Positions 8,133 through 18,237 of a stretch of DNA of 45,013 nucleotides are shown here, piece after piece. The stretch's first letter is position 1. Every line of letters starts with the position of its first letter. Position numbers and translations under genes: made by a program. The notes under the pieces were generated by a model, which searched no databases, was not told where the DNA came from, and was given only the letters and a program-made list of their open reading frames with translations. Origin of the DNA: Lachnospiraceae bacterium Zagget2 (GTDB lineage: Bacteria > Bacillota > Clostridia > Lachnospirales > Lachnospiraceae); the NCBI GenBank assembly GCA_001941045.1, contig MSHD01000013.1, positions 47,409-92,421 of the forward strand. The letters run 5' to 3'.

Positions 8133-8360
8133 GTGGCAAAGAGAGAACACGAACTCTATATTTACAAATTGAACGAGCAACACCCGGCATGGAAATATGG
8201 ATACAGATACGATGTGAAAGTTTTCATACATCCGGATTCACACAGGGAAACAGCCTACTACTCAGGAGTTGGTAAGTATTGCAGGACACGCGAAGAAGCT
8301 AACACATATGCCGAAAGCTTCCCTTTTTCAGTTCGTACGTACGAACTTTTTGTTGCGTGA
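8133..8360 (+). CDS. Hypothetical 75-residue protein with the phage palindrome in its 3' end
   Basis: The start is taken as GTG 8133 with AAAGGA 7 bases upstream; the frame is open earlier but those codons have no site. The product (VAKREHELYIYKLNEQ...) is basic and aromatic with a DVKVFIHPDSHRETAYYSG middle and a REEANTYAESF helix. Its last residues, SVRTYELFVA, are encoded by the 18-bp palindrome at 8330-8347, so the palindrome was accommodated in the coding end. It is the leftmost gene that carries a phage palindrome and so may be the leftmost true phage gene. Not recognised. Confidence 0.6.
   Translation: MAKREHELYIYKLNEQHPAWKYGYRYDVKVFIHPDSHRETAYYSGVGKYCRTREEANTYAESFPFSVRTYELFVA
8330..8347. 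repeat. 18-bp palindrome AGTTCGTACGTACGAACT, copy 1
   Basis: Perfect palindrome inside the 3' end of the 8133 gene, 53 bases before the 8401 start. It is the same sequence as at 12112, 14417, 15245 and 16609. It is followed by TTTTT on the + strand. Confidence 0.95.
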
Positions 8361-8400
8361 ATTTAATTTTCGTGATACTCTTTTTTTGGAGGTAAGTGTT

Positions 8401-8685
8401 ATGATTTTTCTTTTGAATGTGGCAATATTGGCAGATATCGTGTTCATGCTATGGCAGATAGGTGAACTGATTTCCATAAACGGCAGGAAGAACGCACTGC
8501 GGGAAGAGCGGGAAGAGACAGCCCGTAACGGCATGGGGTGGTACAGAGTAAATTTTGCACGTTCATGGGATGAAAAGCTTGACGAGGTAATTCTGCGGGA
8601 AAAGGTCAGGTATCTCTTTTATGGAGGCATGGGATTTATTGTATTATTCCTGATACGGATGTATTTTGAAGTTATCACAGTGTAG
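8401..8685 (+). CDS. Small double-membrane-segment phage protein, paralogue of the 11648 product
   Basis: 94 residues from ATG 8401 (GGAGGTAAGTGTT upstream; a longer frame from 8269 is less likely). Layout: membrane segment at residues 2-24, a basic cytosolic stretch (NGRKNALREEREETARNGMGWYR, in two parts: NGRKNALREEREE and TARNGMGWYR), then a second membrane segment at about 73-92. The 98-residue protein at 11648 has the same order and shares the R-x2-E-x-TA-R-GMG-x2-R-x2-F core. The two lie on the + strand, opposite to the phage structural genes. Likely a membrane protein of assembly or host takeover; not recognised. Confidence 0.7.
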   Translation: MIFLLNVAILADIVFMLWQIGELISINGRKNALREEREETARNGMGWYRVNFARSWDEKLDEVILREKVRYLFYGGMGFIVLFLIRMYFEVITV

Positions 8686-8745: not shown

Positions 8746-8994
8746 TCAGGCAAAAGGTATCAAATTCCAGAGTGTTTTAATAACAGCAACAGCAACACGG
8801 AATATGTAAAATACCACTGCGATACGCAGTATTGTTACAATCGTCCCACAGGGTAGCATATAGAGCACACCCTTTATGAGTGAGATTGCATCCTGATAGA
8901 CTAAACTGCTATAATCGAACGTTATAGAAGGAAGCGCAGAAGCTACAGCCTTTATGAGCGAAAAGAAAAACGATATAGTTTTTTCAACAATCAT
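8746..8994 (-). CDS. Small hydrophobic phage protein, pVI-like by position
   Basis: 82 residues from ATG 8994 (GGGGG 7 bases upstream), 13 bases after the stop of the 869-residue gene, so the two are one transcription unit. It has a hydrophobic N-terminal helix, a middle loop (PSITFDYSSLVYQDAI) and a long C-terminal membrane stretch containing MLPCGTIVTILRIAVVFYIF. The LPC turn in the membrane stretch faintly recalls the LLPVCIPV and CLPACIAV of the two coat proteins. In filamentous phages a small membrane protein (pVI) follows the large adsorption protein (pIII) and caps the same virion end; this gene has that position and size. The assignment is inference. Confidence 0.6.
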   Translation of the reverse strand: MIVEKTISFFFSLIKAVASALPSITFDYSSLVYQDAISLIKGVLYMLPCGTIVTILRIAVVFYIFRVAVAVIKTLWNLIPFA

Positions 8995-9007
8995 AATTTA
9001 CCCCCTT

Positions 9008-11617
9008 TTATCTCTTAACATGAAGCTCATTATATTCCGCACGAAGCTCCCCAGATTCTGAATCAGTTGAAAATCCATAGTGCAATACACTACCACCCTG
9101 AATAATACTAGGCAGGTTCAGTATCAGCCGCCAGAGGAACACTAACCACAGGAATGCACTGATTATGGCATCCCCATATTTCTTATAATCCGCATACCAT
9201 GAGAAATCTACTAAGGCAATCATGTCACCGTATTTAAAGTTTTCAGACGTGGCGGCACTCAGGTCGATGTAAATCACAGGTGGTTCTGCATCCTCTTCGA
9301 ATATGCTGATTATATCTTCATAAACTGTTATCAGCGTATCTATGAACGGGAAACCAGAGCGAAGTTCTGATATCTCGTCAGTAATCGCATAGGATGAAGG
9401 AACAAACAGCGTTTCAAGGAGTGCAGACAGCAGGTTGATAATGTCAGCAGGAATTGCAATTATCGTTGAGATTATATCTTCCAGTGTAGCAACTATTGTA
9501 GCAGGTACAGACAAGATTGCATCTATGATTTTCTGTAGCCATTCCCAGAGCAAATCCCACGCAGAAGACAGCGCGACTGTTATTGTATCCGGGATTGATA
9601 TGATTAAGTCCCCAATACCTTCAACAGCTCCGACAATCGCGCCCGGGATATCAAGCGTGCCAATCGCTTCCGCGACAGCGGCAGGAATCGCGGTAATACC
9701 GTCAATGATATCTGTCAGGAATGCGGGAATCGTCAGGCCATCAAGCACCTCTTCAATGTAGTTTGCAATGGACAAGGGTATTCCCGTCAGTACGTCAAGG
9801 ACATTACTTAACGCGCCCGGGATGGAAGACTTTTCAAGCACGTCCCCAATCGCGTCAGGTAAGCCTACTGTAATACCCGTGAGCACATCTGATATACTAC
9901 TGGATATGCCCGTCAGCGTATCATCAAGCCCCGGGAAGGTATCAGCGATAGCATCCGCGAGGGACTGCGTTTGCGCGTATAGCGCATCTGTGACACCAGA
10001 TAGCAATGATTGAAGCAGAGAATCGAGCCCGCTAAACGTGTCTGTTATCGTGTCAGCAACATCTGATATGTAGCGCGGTATGGACTGAACAGAAGCCAGT
10101 GTATTTGACAGATACCCGTACAGGACGGCAAAGAGGGACGATAGCCCCAAAGCGTTTGCAATCAGCGAAGGTAGGTCAACAATCGTGTTGACGATTGCTT
10201 GTAAACCAGATATAATACTATTTGTATTTGACACCGACTGCTGATTGAGAGCTTCCGTAGAGTCCTCTATGTCAGAGGCGTCAATAGTACCCGCAGGGTC
10301 GATAGTCGTAGGGACATAGACCGTTGATTCTTCGTCCGTATCGTCTACAGCCTCATCATAGGTTGTGGAAACAGCAAGCGCGTCAGAGACAGCTTGTACA
10401 AAGATTGCTTGTTGTTCGGTATCCGTCAGGTCAGGATTATCCGCGATAGCGGCGGCAACTGCCGCTTCCGCTATTTCATAGATATCAACGTTGTTGAACG
10501 ATATCGAGGTTGCGTTGTCCTGATAGGGCGCAGTGTCAACCATTGAGGAGGAATCGACTGCAAAGTCAGTCTCAAGATCCACGATTGTACTATCATCATC
10601 GAAATAGCATTCAAGACCATATTGGTCAATATAAATACAATTAGCCGCATTGCTCTGTGAAGTTGAACATAAAGACGGCATAAAGTCTCCGATGATATAG
10701 AATTGCGTCAAGTAGAAATTATAACTTTGGTCATTACTATTGTTAAGAAGTCCAAATGAATAAATTGTATAATAGTTCCATAAACCTGAAATTAAATTAT
10801 TTAATTTATCAGCAGAACCAACAGAACCAAAATTATATAGATACGTTGCATTAGAATACTGAGAAGTTGAACCCGTATACCATCCATCATAATCAGAGGC
10901 ACCAATAGATGAAGAGGGAACAAAACCAAATGTAATATAAGTACCGTTAGAAGTAGAGTTAATATAACGAATACTCATAATTCCCTGAAAACTGTTAATA
11001 TAACTAACAAAATCATTATAACTTGAGGAATCATAATTACTTGCCGCAGAGAGCCAATCCGATAAGGGCATATCATTGTAGTCACCAATATCGCCTAATA
11101 TATCTACAGAGAGTGACGTTACGTGTCCACCGTATGAGCCAGTGTTGGAGACAGTACCCACAGAGGCATCATAAGTGAACACGTTTTTCAGGAACGTGTA
11201 GAGGGCAGAGGCAACGTAACTAACTTGTGCGGCATCGTTGGCTATGGTAATGATAGGGCTTGTGTCACCACTCAGGGTATCATCTAAACCGTATAAGATA
11301 TCCAACACGCTATTAGCAGTCGTACCGCCGACAATAAGACCTGAATCTGCATAGATTTCAAGCCAGTCAAAGAAATCACCTGTTAAAATAGAAGCATCTT
11401 TTGAGCTTATGTTAGATACGCCCATAGAAGGAAGGAGCGCAGATATAAGCGCCGCACTGCCAGAAAGCGCAGAAATCAGAAGACCATATTCGAGGCCAGT
11501 TGCGTTGACTTCATACGTTTTCTTTGAATCAAGATAAGTTGAAACAGGCGATAGGAACAGTATCAGGACTGCCAGTGAAAAACACAAAGCCCGTTTACAA
11601 TATTTTGTTAAACGCAT
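9008..11617 (-). CDS. Large exported phage protein, candidate pIII-like adsorption protein
   Basis: 869 residues from ATG 11617 with AGGAGG 5 bases upstream. A signal peptide lies at about residues 1-33 (KRALCFSLAVLILFLSPVSTYL). The N-terminal 350 residues are Ser/Asn/Tyr/Asp-rich, as in cell-surface binding domains. From about 470 to 760 runs a long amphipathic repeat of roughly 18-25-residue units with the recurring pattern (L/I)-x-x-IP-x-x-(I/L)-x-x-x-(I/L) and GLDD/GL-L. Near the C-terminus is one membrane segment (IISAFLWLVFLWRLILNLPS) and a short basic tail. Signal peptide, long outside part and C-terminal anchor match filamentous-phage pIII in plan, but the protein is about twice pIII's length. 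The middle is AT-rich in places (10.7-11.0 kb). Confidence 0.65.
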   Translation of the reverse strand: MRLTKYCKRALCFSLAVLILFLSPVSTYLDSKKTYEVNATGLEYGLLISALSGSAALISALLPSMGVSNISSKDASILTGDFFDWLEIYADSGLIVGGTTANSVLDILYGLDDTLSGDTSPIITIANDAAQVSYVASALYTFLKNVFTYDASVGTVSNTGSYGGHVTSLSVDILGDIGDYNDMPLSDWLSAASNYDSSSYNDFVSYINSFQGIMSIRYINSTSNGTYITFGFVPSSSIGASDYDGWYTGSTSQYSNATYLYNFGSVGSADKLNNLISGLWNYYTIYSFGLLNNSNDQSYNFYLTQFYIIGDFMPSLCSTSQSNAANCIYIDQYGLECYFDDDSTIVDLETDFAVDSSSMVDTAPYQDNATSISFNNVDIYEIAEAAVAAAIADNPDLTDTEQQAIFVQAVSDALAVSTTYDEAVDDTDEESTVYVPTTIDPAGTIDASDIEDSTEALNQQSVSNTNSIISGLQAIVNTIVDLPSLIANALGLSSLFAVLYGYLSNTLASVQSIPRYISDVADTITDTFSGLDSLLQSLLSGVTDALYAQTQSLADAIADTFPGLDDTLTGISSSISDVLTGITVGLPDAIGDVLEKSSIPGALSNVLDVLTGIPLSIANYIEEVLDGLTIPAFLTDIIDGITAIPAAVAEAIGTLDIPGAIVGAVEGIGDLIISIPDTITVALSSAWDLLWEWLQKIIDAILSVPATIVATLEDIISTIIAIPADIINLLSALLETLFVPSSYAITDEISELRSGFPFIDTLITVYEDIISIFEEDAEPPVIYIDLSAATSENFKYGDMIALVDFSWYADYKKYGDAIISAFLWLVFLWRLILNLPSIIQGGSVLHYGFSTDSESGELRAEYNELHVKR

Positions 11618-11647
11618 AAATACCTCCTGAAAGGATAAAACAAACAA

Positions 11648-11944
11648 ATGTTATGGACAGTAGCAACTATCATATTTAATATACTTTTAATAGCCATGAT
11701 AGCCTTTATCATTATGGCTATCTCAGCTTATATAAGTATCTGCACAAGAAACTACAGGGAACGGAAAACAGCAGAGCGCGGAATGGGTTTGTTCAGGATT
11801 TACTTTTCTAAATCTAAAAGCGAATTGTCTGATGAAGAAATGTTAAATAGTTATTTGAAGTATGCGATTATTTGTTTTTTTTCAATGGTAGGTGTATTAG
11901 CTTTTACTGAATTGATAGAACATATAATAGGGTATTTTTCATGA
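11648..11944 (+). CDS. Small double-membrane-segment phage protein, paralogue of the 8401 product
   Basis: 98 residues from ATG 11648; AAAGGA stands about 13 bases upstream, so initiation may be weak. A membrane segment spans about residues 3-30, followed by a basic loop (CTRNYRERKTAERGMGLFRI) and a second membrane segment at about 70-95. The GMG-x2-R-x2-F core and overall layout match the 8401 product. The gene starts 30 bases from, and divergent to, the 869-residue gene. Not recognised outside this element. Confidence 0.7.
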   Translation: MLWTVATIIFNILLIAMIAFIIMAISAYISICTRNYRERKTAERGMGLFRIYFSKSKSELSDEEMLNSYLKYAIICFFSMVGVLAFTELIEHIIGYFS

Positions 11945-12093
11945 TTTTTTATGATACCATTCCTAAACCCCTTCGTCCTTCGCCCCCCCCCTTTCCCCTC
12001 TCCAGAGGGGGGCGGGACAGTCAACACATTTCCGTCTTTAAAGGGGACGGAAATATGTTGAGCAAGATGCGCGGGGAAGTTCTGTTTTATGTT
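11945..12093. other. Hairpin-rich gap between convergent genes
   Basis: Two folded parts are seen. A poly-C/poly-G pair, CCCCTCT (11994-12000) and AGAGGGG (12004-12010), follows a run of nine C at about 11981-11990. Next, AACACATTTCCGTC (12023-12036) pairs with GACGGAAATATGTT (12046-12059), 14 bp with one mismatch and a 9-base loop. This could be a two-way terminator for the 11648 gene and rep, or part of the phage replication or packaging region. Confidence 0.55.
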
Positions 12094-13158
12094 TTACGCT
12101 TTTGCCGCGAAAGTTCGTACGTACGAACTCTTTTTCTCAAGCGGGACAATTCTGCACGGCCTGAATACGCGAAGGGACTTTTTGTCAATGAACTCATACA
12201 GATTGAACTTGCGGATATTCTTGTCAAATGTTTCCTTGCTTCTCTTCGCATTCTTTGAATCAATCGGTTCATTGTTTTCGCCAGTTTCGATATAGTAGAT
12301 ATCGCGATTACACTGCGGGACATGTGTTTTCTTGATACAGTCCATATGCCCGGAAAGGTTCTCTAGGATTTTCATATGGTTCTCGATGTATACTTCGTCA
12401 CATACGTCCTTCGCCCGTACTGTATTGCGGGAGCACCAATAGCGGTGGCGGCCATGTAAAAGACCTTCTGTGTCTTTCGTGATATACTTCGCGATATAGT
12501 TGCTTACTTTCCCAGTGTGGCCTACTTCCGTAACCGTATTAAAGCCATACTTCCATGAAGGGATATTGTAAATCACGTTCCCTTTCTTATCAAACTTGCC
12601 AGAAACACGGAGCTGTAGGCCGCTACAGTTCGCCAGAAGCCCATGCAGGTGGTAATGCTCCCCATCCTTGTGAAGCTCCGGGACAAGCACGTATTTCAGG
12701 TCAGGGCATAAGCGGGAGCGGATATTATTAAGCCACTTTCCCGCTTTATGGCAGACTTCCTCATAGTTGGAAGAATCAACCAATTTCTGGTTGAAGGTGA
12801 AAGTGATGAAATAGTCCCATCTGTTTGCGCGGCAGATTCCAATCAGGCTTTGCTTAGAACGGTTCAAGGAAACTTGTTTATTCCGCTCAGCTTGTTCCAT
12901 GTCAACGATATACTCGACTGTATTGGTAAACGGATTAAACGTGCCTTTCCTCTTTTTCAGTTCTTCCCGTGCTTCCGCCAGTTTTTCCATGCGGTCAGCT
13001 TTTTTTGGATTCTCCTTGCGGAGATTCTTCTCGATACGGCTTTCAAGCTCCTTTTTCATGAGCTTTTCCGATTCTGACATTTTTGTAACTGGACGGGAAT
13101 ATATGCGGTATTGCGTCCCGGTCACATAGTAGTATACTTTCAGGTTGTACTTTTCCAT
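12094..13158 (-). CDS. rep: Rolling-circle replication initiator (HUH endonuclease)
   Basis: 354 residues from ATG 13158. Motif I is FITFTF (117-122); the metal-binding HUH motif is in HYHLHG (His170, His172); motif III is NYIAKYITKD with candidate catalytic Tyr221 and Tyr225 flanking Lys224. These are the three motifs of rolling-circle initiators that nick the origin and stay joined through a phosphotyrosine. A coiled, basic N-terminal part precedes the catalytic domain. The start has no clear ribosome site; instead an 18-bp palindrome sits 9-26 bases upstream, which suggests tight control. The last codons (SSYVRTF) lie in a second palindrome. Filamentous phages and small plasmids use such proteins; the neighbours favour phage. 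Confidence 0.9.
   Translation of the reverse strand: MEKYNLKVYYYVTGTQYRIYSRPVTKMSESEKLMKKELESRIEKNLRKENPKKADRMEKLAEAREELKKRKGTFNPFTNTVEYIVDMEQAERNKQVSLNRSKQSLIGICRANRWDYFITFTFNQKLVDSSNYEEVCHKAGKWLNNIRSRLCPDLKYVLVPELHKDGEHYHLHGLLANCSGLQLRVSGKFDKKGNVIYNIPSWKYGFNTVTEVGHTGKVSNYIAKYITKDTEGLLHGRHRYWCSRNTVRAKDVCDEVYIENHMKILENLSGHMDCIKKTHVPQCNRDIYYIETGENNEPIDSKNAKRSKETFDKNIRKFNLYEFIDKKSLRVFRPCRIVPLEKKSSYVRTFAAKA
12112..12129. repeat. 18-bp palindrome, copy 2
   Basis: Perfect AGTTCGTACGTACGAACT inside the last codons of rep. It has AA before and CT after, the flanks also seen at 14417 and 15245. Confidence 0.95.
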
Positions 13159-13316: not shown

Positions 13317-14159
13317 CTATTCTGATTCAGTCGTTGGCACGTCTCGCGGCAGGAAGCCGCTTTTTGTGAGACTGTCAATTACGGCATACGTGTCGTATGC
13401 GTTGCGGATTCTATCCGTATGGGTGAAGCAGTAAAAGCCCCGGCTTTTCCACTCGACTACTTCGCCCTTGTCGTTCAGGACAGGGGCTTTACAGCGGACG
13501 ATTGTGAAGCAATGCAGGATTGTCATGCAATCCCGCACTTCCGTGGCCTGAGAGCGGATTGCCTTTGCGAGCAGATAGAAGTTCTGCGCAGTACCCAATA
13601 TAATACGACGGTTTTTTCTGTTCTGAGTGATAATTGAAAGCATTTCAGGCGGGAAGTTGCGGGAGGCGTTTGAACCAAACCAGTTTTGCAGTTCGTCCAT
13701 TCCGACAATAACGCCTTTCACATCATTTTTATAGTCTGTGAGCATACGCCAGTCTTCGAGAAAGCAATCTTCATATTTGTATCCAAAGTTTGTAATACAC
13801 TTTGCTTTCGGATAGCAGTCTTGTAAGTGAAGCATATACTCCACCATGGAGACAGTTTTTCCCATACCTTGACGCCCGGTGAAGATAATCATCCCTTGCG
13901 GGTTGAAGAAATCAGCGGGACGAGACATGTAGTCACTGACCATCTGGCGGGGTGCAAGGATAAAGAGTGAGTAAAATATGTTCGGACGCTTTAAATGCTT
14001 CACAGACGTTTTCGCAGGACGGATACCTTTTGCATAAGCAAGTATCAGATAGAAAAAGTAGATCATCATGAAAACGGCATAAAGCCCGACTATAATAAGC
14101 AAAGGCCATTTCAGGATATTCAGAAACGCCAGTAACATATTTAAAAAAGAATCGAGCAT
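13317..14159 (-). CDS. Zot/pI-type phage assembly ATPase
   Basis: 280 residues from ATG 14159 (GGAG 8 bases upstream). A strong membrane segment lies at about residues 15-43, at the N-terminus. Walker A is GRQGMGKT (95-102) and Walker B is VIVGMDE (150-156) followed by LQNWFGS. ITQNRKNRRIILGTAQ matches the sensor region of Zot/pI proteins. These inner-membrane ATPases drive extrusion of filamentous phage through the envelope. Gram-negative pI carries its membrane segment after the ATPase domain; the N-terminal anchor here fits a phage of a single-membrane host. Lies between the coat-like zinc protein and rep. This is the clearest inovirus marker in the window. Confidence 0.9.
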   Translation of the reverse strand: MLDSFLNMLLAFLNILKWPLLIIVGLYAVFMMIYFFYLILAYAKGIRPAKTSVKHLKRPNIFYSLFILAPRQMVSDYMSRPADFFNPQGMIIFTGRQGMGKTVSMVEYMLHLQDCYPKAKCITNFGYKYEDCFLEDWRMLTDYKNDVKGVIVGMDELQNWFGSNASRNFPPEMLSIITQNRKNRRIILGTAQNFYLLAKAIRSQATEVRDCMTILHCFTIVRCKAPVLNDKGEVVEWKSRGFYCFTHTDRIRNAYDTYAVIDSLTKSGFLPRDVPTTESE

Positions 14160-14447
14160 AGTATTTTCTCCAATCGTAAGGTAGTGGCAACCACAAGGTT
14201 ACAAGGGGCACTTAAGGCCGCTGAGCGGGAAAAGCGCCACTCAGCGACGCTAAGCCAGTTTTCGTCCATTCCATAATCAGTAAACGGCAAGAGCTTACGC
14301 TTCGAGTGCCGCACAGCTCCGTTTCACTACGCTGTACGGCCTCAACCGTTTGACTGATTTTCCATGGACTTGGCAAGCGTCAGGTTATCACAGGACTGCC
14401 AGAGGGGCGGCTTCAAAGTTCGTACGTACGAACTCTAGCCCCGGGAG
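14160..14447. other. 288-base gap with several hairpins and palindrome copy 4
   Basis: No gene is supported here. CGCTGAG (about 14219-14225) pairs with CTCAGCG (about 14240-14246), and GCCGCACAGC (14308-14317) pairs with GCTGTACGGC (14331-14340, one mismatch). Palindrome copy 4 is at 14417-14434. A small hairpin TAGCCCCGGGAGCTA overlaps the stop of the zinc protein gene. Like 13159-13316 it could hold replication or packaging signals, or serve as the leader of the Zot gene. Confidence 0.55.
14417..14434. repeat. 18-bp palindrome, copy 4
   Basis: Perfect copy, 14 bases past the stop codon of the zinc-motif coat-like gene, in the leader of the Zot gene. Flanks AA and CT as in copies 2 and 5. 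Confidence 0.95.
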
Positions 14448-15227
14448 CTACGCGCTGTTCATGGTATCACGGATAAAGGCTATTGCTTTGCGGATACCCA
14501 GTGCAGAGACAAGGACAGCGATACAGGCCGGGAGACAGTAGAGGATATAGGCGAACATGTAGGACGGGTCAGTCAGGACTGTGAGCCACGATGAATCCTC
14601 CATAAGCTTCATATTTACATAGGTAAAATAATCGACCAAAGAATAAACAACACCAGTGCCGTCACAATTAGCACAGGTACCATAAGCCTTAATATTGCCG
14701 CTTCCATCACAGGTAGTGCAATCTACAGTTTGCGAAACAATACCAGAAGTACCACAGTCGCCACACATGGTGTATTCTGTCAGAGCGCCGGAGCCTAAAC
14801 AGGTATCACAGGTGTAATAAAAAAAACCAATGCCGCCACAGGTAGAGCAGGTTTCCGTATACTCTACGGGATTTCCTTCTCCGTCTGTATCATAAATGGT
14901 AATAGTACCCATACCAGAGCAGTCGGAACACATTTCCATAAACGACCCAACGCCGCCACAGTTTGAGCAAGCAATTTCATACTCTGTATAACCAAAACCG
15001 CCACACATAGAACAGGCCGCGTCCTCATAGGTAAAACCATTACCACCACAGGAAGGGCATGTCTCATAACCTAAAAAAACTACCCCAGAGCCGTCACAGG
15101 AAGAGCAGGTCGTGGCAACACTATGAGAAGAAGCGCAGACCGGGACGCAGAGCATGGGGACGACCAGAAGGACGGCAAGGATTATATATTTGAGCTTGAT
15201 ATGATTTTCATGTTCTTGAGTATTCAT
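14448..15227 (-). CDS. Exported zinc-finger-like protein with a coat-protein C-terminus
   Basis: 259 residues from ATG 15227 (AGAGG 10 bases upstream). Residues about 12-32 are a signal peptide (KYIILAVLLVVPMLCVPVCA). Residues about 38-200 hold ten CxxCxxxG motifs (CSSCDGSG, CPSCGGNG, CSMCGGFG, CSNCGGVG, CSDCSGMG, CSTCGGIG, CDTCLGSG, CGDCGTSG, CTTCDGSG, CANCDGTG), the DnaJ-type zinc-centre pattern in which two motifs bind one Zn. The last 36 residues, YCLPACIAVLVSALGIRKAI then AFIRDTMNSA, match the major coat protein end LLPVCIPVMVSFIGLRKAI then AFVRSILQSA. It is thus probably a minor virion protein that displays a zinc-rich or disulphide-rich domain outside. I know of no described filamentous-phage protein of this design. 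Confidence 0.8.
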   Translation of the reverse strand: MNTQEHENHIKLKYIILAVLLVVPMLCVPVCASSHSVATTCSSCDGSGVVFLGYETCPSCGGNGFTYEDAACSMCGGFGYTEYEIACSNCGGVGSFMEMCSDCSGMGTITIYDTDGEGNPVEYTETCSTCGGIGFFYYTCDTCLGSGALTEYTMCGDCGTSGIVSQTVDCTTCDGSGNIKAYGTCANCDGTGVVYSLVDYFTYVNMKLMEDSSWLTVLTDPSYMFAYILYCLPACIAVLVSALGIRKAIAFIRDTMNSA

Positions 15228-15244
15228 AAGCCACACCTCTCAAA

Positions 15245-15262
15245 AGTTCGTACGTACGAACT
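15245..15262. repeat. 18-bp palindrome, copy 5
   Basis: Perfect copy 17 bases upstream of the start of the zinc-motif coat-like gene, with the ribosome site between. Confidence 0.95.
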
Positions 15263-15280
15263 CTAAAAAACGATAAATCT

Positions 15281-15317
15281 GAAAATGCCCTCCGACACAT
15301 GGAACGTGCCAGAGGGC
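15281..15317 (-). terminator. Hairpin after the major coat gene
   Basis: On the - strand GCCCTC-T-GGCAC pairs with GTG-TC-G-GAGGGC (15317-15287), followed by ATTTTC. A smaller GCGGGC-TT-GCCCGC hairpin lies between it and the coat stop. A partial stop here would make more coat than minor coat mRNA, as filamentous phages need. Confidence 0.5.
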
Positions 15318-15350
15318 AACCCACCTTTCAGGCGGGCAAGCCCGCTAGGA

Positions 15351-15497
15351 TTAAGCGGACTGAAGGATACTACGGACGAAGGCAATCGCCTTGCGCAGGC
15401 CGATGAAGGACACCATCACCGGGATGCAGACCGGGAGCAGAGCCACGATCTCGTCAAGCACGCCATTGAGCATGGCGGAAGTTACAACCTCAGACAT
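15351..15497 (-). CDS. Major coat protein of the filamentous phage
   Basis: 48 residues from ATG 15497 with AAAGGAG 8 bases upstream. The order is: an acidic amphipathic N-terminus (MSEVVTSAMLNGVLDEIVAL), a hydrophobic core (LPVCIPVMVSFIG), and a basic C-terminus (LRKAIAFVRSILQSA). This acid-hydrophobic-base plan and length are those of inovirus pVIII proteins; there is no cleavable signal peptide, as in the Pf3 coat. Its own promoter and a downstream hairpin surround it. Its C-terminal half is repeated in the 14448 product. Too short for ordinary gene callers, so easily missed. Confidence 0.82.
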   Translation of the reverse strand: MSEVVTSAMLNGVLDEIVALLPVCIPVMVSFIGLRKAIAFVRSILQSA

Positions 15498-16074: not shown

Positions 16075-16587
16075 TTAAAAGAACATGTTAAAGAACTTGT
16101 ATGTGTAGCGGAGCAGGATGATAAGCAGGAACACGATAAGCAGACACGCGATTGTGCCGTTTACGTCAATCAGGGAATCGAGCTTTTCATTGGCAAGGGC
16201 AATCTGCTCCAGTTGCAAAGTTTCCAATTCAGATGAATCATAGCTTGTTTCAGAATCTTCCGTACTGTCAGAATCTTCTGTTTCTTCGGAATCTTCCGTA
16301 GTTTCAGACTCTACACTATTAGACGAACTATTCGATACAGAACCCTCCGAACCAGATACCGAAGGAACTGAAACACTACCTTCGGAAGATGTACCAGAAG
16401 TCTCACCACTACCTTCTTCCTCACTTTCTTCTGCGCTTTCTTCTACATTGCTATCCTCTGAAACCTCAGACTCCGAAGCGCTTGCTCCGCTGTTTGTCTC
16501 CTCCGTATTGTTTCCGGATTCTGCTCCGGAGCCTGAATTTTCAGATGCAGAAATTTCAGAGGAATCATTTTCAGTTGTATTACCCAT
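16075..16587 (-). CDS. Ser/Glu-rich protein with C-terminal membrane anchor
   Basis: 170 residues from ATG 16587 (AAAGGA 9 bases upstream). Residues 1-115 are almost only Ser, Glu, Asp, Thr, Gly and Asn in short irregular repeats (for example SESEVSEDSNVEESAEESEE). Then comes a helix (LETLQLEQIALANEKLDSLI) and a C-terminal membrane segment (TIACLLIVFLLIILLRYTYK). No signal peptide, so the topology is either tail-anchored or N-out. Such a low-complexity acidic stalk on a phage-encoded membrane protein would suit surface display or a minor virion tip protein. Not recognised. Confidence 0.7.
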   Translation of the reverse strand: MGNTTENDSSEISASENSGSGAESGNNTEETNSGASASESEVSEDSNVEESAEESEEEGSGETSGTSSEGSVSVPSVSGSEGSVSNSSSNSVESETTEDSEETEDSDSTEDSETSYDSSELETLQLEQIALANEKLDSLIDVNGTIACLLIVFLLIILLRYTYKFFNMFF

Positions 16588-17375: not shown

Positions 17376-18161
17376 TTAACAGGTTGGATAGGATATGCCG
17401 ATATCAATACCGACTGCACGATCATCAGGCATAGTAGCGATATAGCTTTTCAGCGTCTCGCAGAGGTGAGTGAGATACTCCGTATCAGAAAGGCTTTTCT
17501 GCATTTCGTCACAGTCCAGAAACGACACGACAGAGAGATATGTACGAACCTTTCCCTGCTCGCCCTCAGCGTCCTCAGAATCGCCCTCAGAGCTTTCTCC
17601 ACTGGAATTGCCACCAGTTGCACCTTCCTCAGATTCTTCCTCAGAATCCTCGTCAGAGCCGATCAGGCCGCTTTCAGAATCCGCCTCGATACACTCCATA
17701 ACCTCTTTCTTCTTCGCTTGCATTTCCCGTGCGGTCATGGACGGAGTAAAGAACTCCAAATACTCGTCAGGGACAGTCAACAGAATGCAGAGCTTTGAGA
17801 AGGTGAACTTCTCAACTTCTGGAATCAAGCCAGAGGCATCCCCGGTCAGAAGATTGCCCTCCGTATCCTTTTTGCCGAAGCGCTTGATTATGTTAATGTA
17901 GTTACAGGTCGTGCCACGCGCGATACAGAAAGTCTCAGCGGCGAAGTCATAAATCGACTTGTGGCCGTCAATCGCGAAATACTTCTTGTCATACACTTCC
18001 GCCAGAGCAAAAGCGATAGCAAGGGTACTCTTCTCGACCTTCTTGTACTCGCGGGACATAGAGCCGATAATCTTGTTGTACTCAGCTTTTTGCTCAGGGG
18101 TGAATGTAGAGCTAAGATGGACTTTTGAATCGTCGTAGACGCTCAGGTTTGTGTTTGCCAT
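17376..18161 (-). CDS. 261-residue phage protein with acidic linker, possibly DNA-binding
   Basis: ATG 18161 with AAAGGAGGAAG upstream; first gene of the long - strand phage run. Residues 1-140 are helical, with YDFAAETFCIARGTTCNYIN resembling a helix-turn-helix (SIYDFAAE... then IARGTTCNYINIIKRFG). Residues about 165-200 are a Glu/Ser/Gly linker (SDEDSEEESEEGATGGNSSG). The C-terminal 60 residues (VVSFLDCDEMQKSLSDTEYL) form a second small domain. At the junction the bases 17540-17556 are 16/17 identical to the right half of palindrome copy 3, encoding VRTY as other palindromes do. It could be the phage regulator or replication accessory. Not recognised with confidence. Confidence 0.6.
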   Translation of the reverse strand: MANTNLSVYDDSKVHLSSTFTPEQKAEYNKIIGSMSREYKKVEKSTLAIAFALAEVYDKKYFAIDGHKSIYDFAAETFCIARGTTCNYINIIKRFGKKDTEGNLLTGDASGLIPEVEKFTFSKLCILLTVPDEYLEFFTPSMTAREMQAKKKEVMECIEADSESGLIGSDEDSEEESEEGATGGNSSGESSEGDSEDAEGEQGKVRTYLSVVSFLDCDEMQKSLSDTEYLTHLCETLKSYIATMPDDRAVGIDIGISYPTC

Positions 18162-18203: not shown

Positions 18204-18237
18204 AAATTTTCAGAAAAAGGAATGGGTCTTTTAACGA

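Follow-up and report, generated by a model that had tools for sequence, protein, structure and literature searches.

In Ff phages, pIII is the adhesin at the virion tip, and pVII and pIX act at one end of the filament. The coat protein pVIII has been turned into a carrier of foreign domains in type 8+8 phage display, an engineered coat display. The cysteine repeats of DnaJ comprise four motifs, and programmed -1 frameshifting at X_XXY_YYZ sites is known in phage tail-assembly chaperones and in IS elements. No published description of the protein design reported here, or of the putative frameshift, was found among titles and abstract openings, most subscription papers lying outside the coverage of the search. 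Filamentous phage is mentioned once in the accessible part of PMC5009743, with regard to frameshifts in phage-display libraries, and frameshift has 0 occurrences in the main text of PMC6813254, which deals with cryptic inoviruses. The present analysis concerns a 45,013-nucleotide stretch of DNA from Lachnospiraceae bacterium Zagget2 (hereafter the window; C13:47409-92421), and follows up an earlier note on one of its exported proteins.

An inovirus prophage in the window

Judged by its gene content, the locus is an inovirus prophage, encoded on the minus strand and carrying genes for a coat, Zot and Rep as well as for pIII-like and pVI-like proteins (Table 1); the short single-helix coat gene lies near Zot, and the Rep is of the rolling-circle type, as expected of an inovirus. 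From position 18161 downwards, the genes encode proteins of 261, 87 and 107 aa, then an acidic one of 170 aa that ends in a transmembrane (TM) segment, and proteins of 93 and 49 aa, followed by the coat, the Cys-rich protein, Zot, Rep, and the pIII-like and pVI-like proteins, the pIII-like gene being displaced to a position after Rep. Zot shares 50-51% identity with the Zots of viral contigs L016 and L017, and the acidic protein matches a 43-aa protein upstream of the coats of L016 (3e-6). The right boundary was placed near 18212, where homology with prophage L057 (Clostridiales bacterium contig) ends.

Table 1. Coordinates of prophage features in the window.
Feature	Position	Strand	Remarks
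Coat-tailed exported Cys-rich protein	14448..15227	-	ATG start, 259 aa
Cys-rich protein, alternative GTG start at 15236	14448..15236	-	262 aa
Signal peptide region of Cys-rich protein	15129..15227	-	residues 4-36 (262-aa numbering); sequence reads KLKYIILAVLLVVPMLCVPVCA
Cys-rich ectodomain	14652..15107	-	residues 44-195; ten CxxCxxxG motifs
Coat-like C-terminal tail of Cys-rich protein	14448..14567	-	residues 224-262; coat-only HMM
Major coat protein, 48 aa	15351..15497	-	67-73% identity to L016 and L017 coats
Zot/pI-like assembly ATPase	13317..14159	-	PF05707 20.0 bits, just below cut-off 20.3
Rolling-circle replication initiator (Rep)	12094..13158	-	PF23343 E 6.1e-12; phrog_3419 E 2.4e-17
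pIII-like protein, 879 aa, own signal peptide	9008..11647	-	phmmer to pIII-position proteins: L017 3e-18, L016 2e-17
pVI-like membrane protein, 82 aa	8746..8994	-	phmmer to pVI-position proteins: L017 2e-9, L016 7e-6
Acidic Ser-rich protein, C-terminal TM	16075..16587	-	upstream of coat (pVII/pIX position)
261-aa protein, prophage right end	17376..18161	-	phrog_15077
18-bp perfect palindrome	15245..15262	.	just upstream of Cys-rich gene
18-bp perfect palindrome	14417..14434	.	just downstream of Cys-rich gene

Two similar ORFs for small membrane proteins (8269-8685 and 11648-11944, both on the plus strand; E 9e-8) share their orientation and flank the displaced pIII-pVI block, which lies on the opposite strand. 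An 18-bp palindrome (AGTTCGTACGTACGAACT) occurs in six copies, at 8330, 12112, 13167, 14417, 15245 and 16609, one of them with a central change (0 copies expected from shuffles); apart from the pair around the Cys-rich gene, one copy lies immediately before Rep and one within its 3' end, and three copies are identical in L057. With at most one mismatch, the 16-bp core was found at 8 sites in the genome, these six plus two, at C13:37390-37457, beside an IS30-type transposase that has 66 relatives in viral contigs. The palindromes may serve as operators or cassette-exchange sites, or may form RNA hairpins. Genes of serine recombinase, primase/helicase and mobilisation type, recognised by eye, were located at L078:6376-8067, 8835-10241 and 10873-12372; their position between the prophage and the IS30 element suggests a composite mobile island.

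An exported Cys-rich protein with a coat-like tail

The earlier note had treated 14448..15497 as one item; this span consists of two minus-strand ORFs, the coat and the Cys-rich protein. Read from its ATG, the latter has the 259 residues that had been reported, and the ten CxxCxxxG motifs described there were counted again, nine of them satisfying the stricter CxxCxGxG pattern by eye. The ectodomain matched the DnaJ central domain (Pfam PF00684) with 52.2 bits (cut-off 32.7; E 7.6e-14). No Pfam J-domain match was obtained in the protein up to E 1, nor did a pIII C-terminal HMM that included the window pIII among its seeds match it at E 1e-3. The structure model of the whole protein was unusable (pLDDT 37), the signal region appearing as a helix (4-37) in this low-confidence model.

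The relationship between the tail and the coat was evaluated with an HMM seeded with 20 coat proteins and zero tailed proteins. In a search of 25,371 stop-to-stop frames, the window tail scored 28.3 bits (E 1.7e-6), compared with a maximum of 2.1 bits in 2000 shuffles of the last 45 residues, so that a chance similarity between membrane segments was rejected. The match between C-terminus and coat pointed out previously is thus upheld, far above the shuffled segments that had been named as its possible undoing. The coat of the same prophage was the top match of the tail when ranked against 17 coats, and tails were paired with the coat of their own locus with P 5e-5 (permutation over 17 loci), a value that partly reflects kinship. 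Among the relatives, the L023 tail was weak (8.1 bits; best shuffle 4.6), and the tails of L024, L064 and L165 gave no coat-HMM match at E 0.05. An HMM of the tails of 19 relatives reached only 15.2 bits (E 0.0089) on the window tail, which therefore resembles the coat of its own phage more closely than it does those tails, and the window form could have arisen through separate copying of that coat. A second type of coat (VLLPVGLTIMGIMIAVSLIPRIIYKFF-like) was observed in L165, L198, L199, L205 and L243, where the tails share its PVGL-type core; the tail thus varies with the coat type across lineages.

The coat-tailed design in related inoviruses

Searches with Zot recovered many related inoviruses. 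On the evidence of their predicted proteins, the combination of signal peptide, ectodomain and coat-like tail is widespread among them, usually encoded shortly after the coat gene. The tailed gene follows the coat in the window, L057, L016, L022, L023 and L061, and in L050 a single small gene separates the two; in L016, L022, L023, L050 and L061 it encodes a signal peptide, an ectodomain that lacks Cys repeats, and a coat-like tail, the N-terminal part in L061 lying in another frame. A unique, one-off design was accordingly rejected. The proposal of the earlier note, an inovirus protein of structural type in which a coat scaffold is fitted with an exported Cys-rich domain, is upheld; the coat tail is not the one-off that it was taken for, given its occurrence with non-Cys ectodomains, and only the Cys-rich ectodomain is rare.

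Those ectodomains of the relatives that were compared with Pfam and PHROGs received no usable name. For L016, the signal and tail helices were the only confident portions of the model; the tail came out as a single long helix, confident towards its end (block pLDDT 93-95 over residues 181-200), matching the expectation for a filamentous coat subunit, and a Foldseek search with this model gave 0 of 48 matches at E <= 0.001. The segment that precedes the slip site in the relatives (see below) could not be detected in the protein of the window, where its score was equalled or exceeded by 980 of 1000 shuffles, and descent of the window ectodomain from theirs is unsupported. Immediately upstream of the coat, a conserved TM protein (43-254 aa) was found in the window, L016, L017, L046, L060, L061, L063 and others; in L050 it sits after the coats instead.

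A -1 overlap with slippery sites between the tailed gene and pIII

Behind the tailed genes of L016, L022, L023, L050 and L061, the pIII C-terminal domain has no signal peptide of its own, because, as a reading of all frames showed, the pIII frame stays open in -1 from where the ectodomain ends, beginning with a Gly/Ser/Thr/Asn-rich linker. A total of 118 Zot-bearing loci, incomplete contigs and some duplicates included, were scanned with either frame permitted for a first ORF of at least 100 aa ending in a TM segment and a second frame with a linker-like start, overlapping by 90-300 nt. All 20 rows retrieved were in -1; with one duplicate removed, they represent 19 distinct loci (L016, L022, L023, L026, L050, L061, L146, L165, L198, L199, L200, L204, L205, L207, L215, L218, L221, L223 and L243). 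Most of the relatives with a tailed protein have its gene overlapping pIII in this way.

A slippery heptamer was present at the junction in all 19 distinct loci if G_GUU_UUU is included: U_UUU_UUU in 13, G_GUU_UUU in five (L016, L050, L165, L200 and L215) and A_AAU_UUU in L218, the A-site codon being UUU throughout; beyond the junction, the same ORFs contained 35 such heptamers in 3754 codon pairs. G_GUU_UUU is not a classical heptamer, which counts against these five sites, and both this motif and the linker criterion were chosen after the first loci had been seen. With the canonical XXXYYYZ alone, 14 of the 19 junctions were positive vs. about 10% expected per junction window (P about 1e-10). 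The Gly/Ser/Asn-rich composition of the linker starts at the slip site. In the 17 of 19 loci where a start codon was found in the second frame, the linker precedes the first one, and in L200 and L205 the scanned second frame contained none; an internal start giving a headless pIII is less likely for this reason. Transcriptional slippage alone is also less likely, since the T-runs are only T5 in L016, L050, L165, L200 and L215, and T4 in L218.

In the overlap, no codon position was spared from substitution, which is the pattern expected where both frames are coding (12/9/16, 20/18/23, 19/17/28 and 19/13/32 at positions 1/2/3 in four close pairs, which are non-independent and have no control, with a third-position excess in the last two); the alignment was built on the zero-frame proteins, so that its whole-codon gaps arise by construction and have no evidential value. 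RNA folding of the 80 nt past the slip site gave z <= -1.9 in four of eight loci (seven of the 19 plus L024) and -0.6 to +1.2 in the rest, a pattern that does not point to a conserved stimulator. A scan under other criteria found the overlap in -1 in eight loci and in +1 only in L145, a pair that was taken as spurious (a 27-residue piece); L024 showed the overlap by those criteria and is absent from the 20-row scan. In a looser scan, 10 of the pairs were in -1 and five in +1; the five +1 pairs, together with those of L177, L230 and L242 and one L251 pair, were read as ordinary overlaps of neighbouring genes.

Uncoupled forms

In the window and L057, the tailed protein shows no pIII overlap. 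The -1 and +1 frames of the window are closed by many stops after the ectodomain, and frameshifting in the window phage itself was rejected on account of the closed -1 frame. L064 combines a 223-aa tailed gene with an in-frame signal-ectodomain-pIII gene; L216, and probably L220, for which no start of its own was found, have a tailed gene with a separate pIII. A long pIII with no tailed protein was found in L017, L047, L060, L063, L065 and L070, among others; L066, the record of Lachnospiraceae bacterium COE1, likewise carries the pIII form alone. On a midpoint-rooted Zot tree (77 usable rows of 111, with 19 rows labelled PRF, L024 included and L199 absent, and five labelled SEP), all three large clades contained the overlap form, interspersed with other forms; the window fell in a clade of 25 rows (starred) with five PRF and three SEP rows, and L026 on a long, unsure branch. 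This pattern fits an old trait with subsequent losses, and repeated gain of the overlap form is possible.

Distribution and divergence of the Cys-rich version

The same Cys-rich protein was found in L057 with 90% identity, one Cys of one of the ten motifs being replaced. No copy was detected in the other 16 of 17 genomes of the genus (E <= 1e-10) or in the other 298 of 299 genomes of the family (E <= 1e-25), nothing was found in viral contigs, and the search against phages returned one unannotated record (E 4e-6). The Cys-rich ectodomain is therefore rare, found in the window and L057 only. The absence of homologues near coat and Zot genes had been proposed as a refutation: tailed proteins do adjoin such genes elsewhere, and the Cys repeats do so in a single other locus.

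Between the window and L057, the single pair on which these rates are based, the ectodomain (residues 36-200) had dN 0.082 and dS 0.195, while the last 62 residues (201-262) showed zero amino-acid changes; dN was 0.002-0.014 for the coat, ORF261, the first 240 codons of Rep, and Zot, which was compared in two pieces. The protein thus has a fast outer domain and a frozen anchor. Fast change in the ectodomain fits contact with a host or a rival, as far as one sequence comparison can indicate. The Zot gene of L057 is split into two frames (L057:9001-9843), so that this copy looks broken or carries a sequencing error. Another protein with ten CxxCxxxG motifs, of 600 aa, is encoded on contig C62 of the window's genome (L002:715-2517), and its C-terminal part resembles a Hint domain by eye.

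Discussion

On balance, we favour the reading in which the window protein is a minor virion protein that holds an exported Cys-rich domain on a coat-like anchor, the corresponding genes of most relatives found with such a protein being putative -1 frameshift pairs, of which the window has an uncoupled form. The signal peptide would take across the membrane a Cys-rich domain that probably forms zinc-binding hairpins like those of the DnaJ central domain, and the coat-homologous helix would let the protein join the assembling filament, like a natural coat-display fusion; the domain may thereby take part in contact with the host or the surroundings. In these relatives, the tailed gene would be the zero-frame half of a programmed frameshift pair: unshifted ribosomes would end in the coat-like helix, and shifted ones would read through the Gly/Ser/Asn-rich linker into the pIII tip anchor. 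One exported domain would then receive two anchors; their ratio would depend on frameshifting in the relatives and, in the window, on there being two genes.

Three other roles were weighed against incorporation as a displayed domain. The tailed protein might stay in the lysogen membrane with its domain outside, excluding phages that use the same receptor and never entering virions. This is unlikely, even though the tail is also a plain membrane anchor behind a signal peptide, pIII N-domains can block superinfection in Ff phages, and the unshifted product of the overlap loci, which shares its ectodomain with pIII, is expected to be the more abundant. Exclusion alone needs no likeness between the anchor and the phage's own coat, and the Cys-rich and pIII domains exported by the window phage are unlike each other. 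A place at one filament end, as an end-cap protein of pVII/pIX type with an enlarged outer domain, would agree with the coat-like helix and with a gene inside the structural block; we regard it as quite improbable, since the pVII/pIX position upstream of the coat is already taken by the conserved TM protein in the window and several relatives, the tailed gene stands where pIII is expected and shares an overlap with it in 19 distinct relatives, and many relatives show no tailed protein.

The third role, in which the Cys-rich domain assists envelope proteins or assembly as a thiol or zinc chaperone and is not a binding domain on display, appears slightly less probable still. It draws on the match to the DnaJ central domain, which comes with no J-domain match, and a fast-changing ectodomain (dN 0.082) that has lost a Cys from one of its ten motifs in L057 is unlike a conserved catalytic or client-binding site.

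Returning to a displayed domain on two anchors, we consider it quite probable that many inoviruses, some at least in Bacillota, practise natural display: a -1 frameshift at a U-rich heptamer would select the coat-type helix or the pIII tip anchor, placing the same domain at the tip and elsewhere on the filament in a set ratio, and the window lineage would be one with separate genes, with a ten-motif zinc-type domain on the coat-anchored one. If the frameshift is real, recoding within the structural genes of filamentous phages would determine the ratio between the two anchored forms of a single surface domain, and laboratory coat-protein display would have a counterpart in nature; since the N-terminus of pIII lies in another frame, gene callers would overlook pIII in these phages or shorten it. 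The odd Cys-rich protein of the window would then be explained by an anchor able to bear many different domains, of which this is one.

Compared with known systems, the design shares with pIII of filamentous phages an exported N-terminal domain, a flexible linker and a C-terminal membrane anchor, as well as, in the relatives, a gene between the coat and pVI/Zot; it differs in that the exported domain ends in a coat-like helix, the overlap relatives reaching the pIII anchor by a putative -1 shift. The Cys-rich domain has the CxxCxGxG-type repeats of the DnaJ central domain, above the Pfam cut-off, but with ten motifs instead of four, and in an exported protein that lacks a J-domain. As in programmed -1 frameshifting elsewhere, the relatives combine a slippery heptamer, a -1 overlap, and one N-terminus with two predicted C-termini, although the choice would lie between two virion anchors and five of the 19 sites are G_GUU_UUU. 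Finally, as in pVIII-based type 8+8 display, an exported domain is fused ahead of a coat helix with a normal coat gene alongside, except that here the fusion is natural and, in the relatives, is apparently made through the choice of reading frame.
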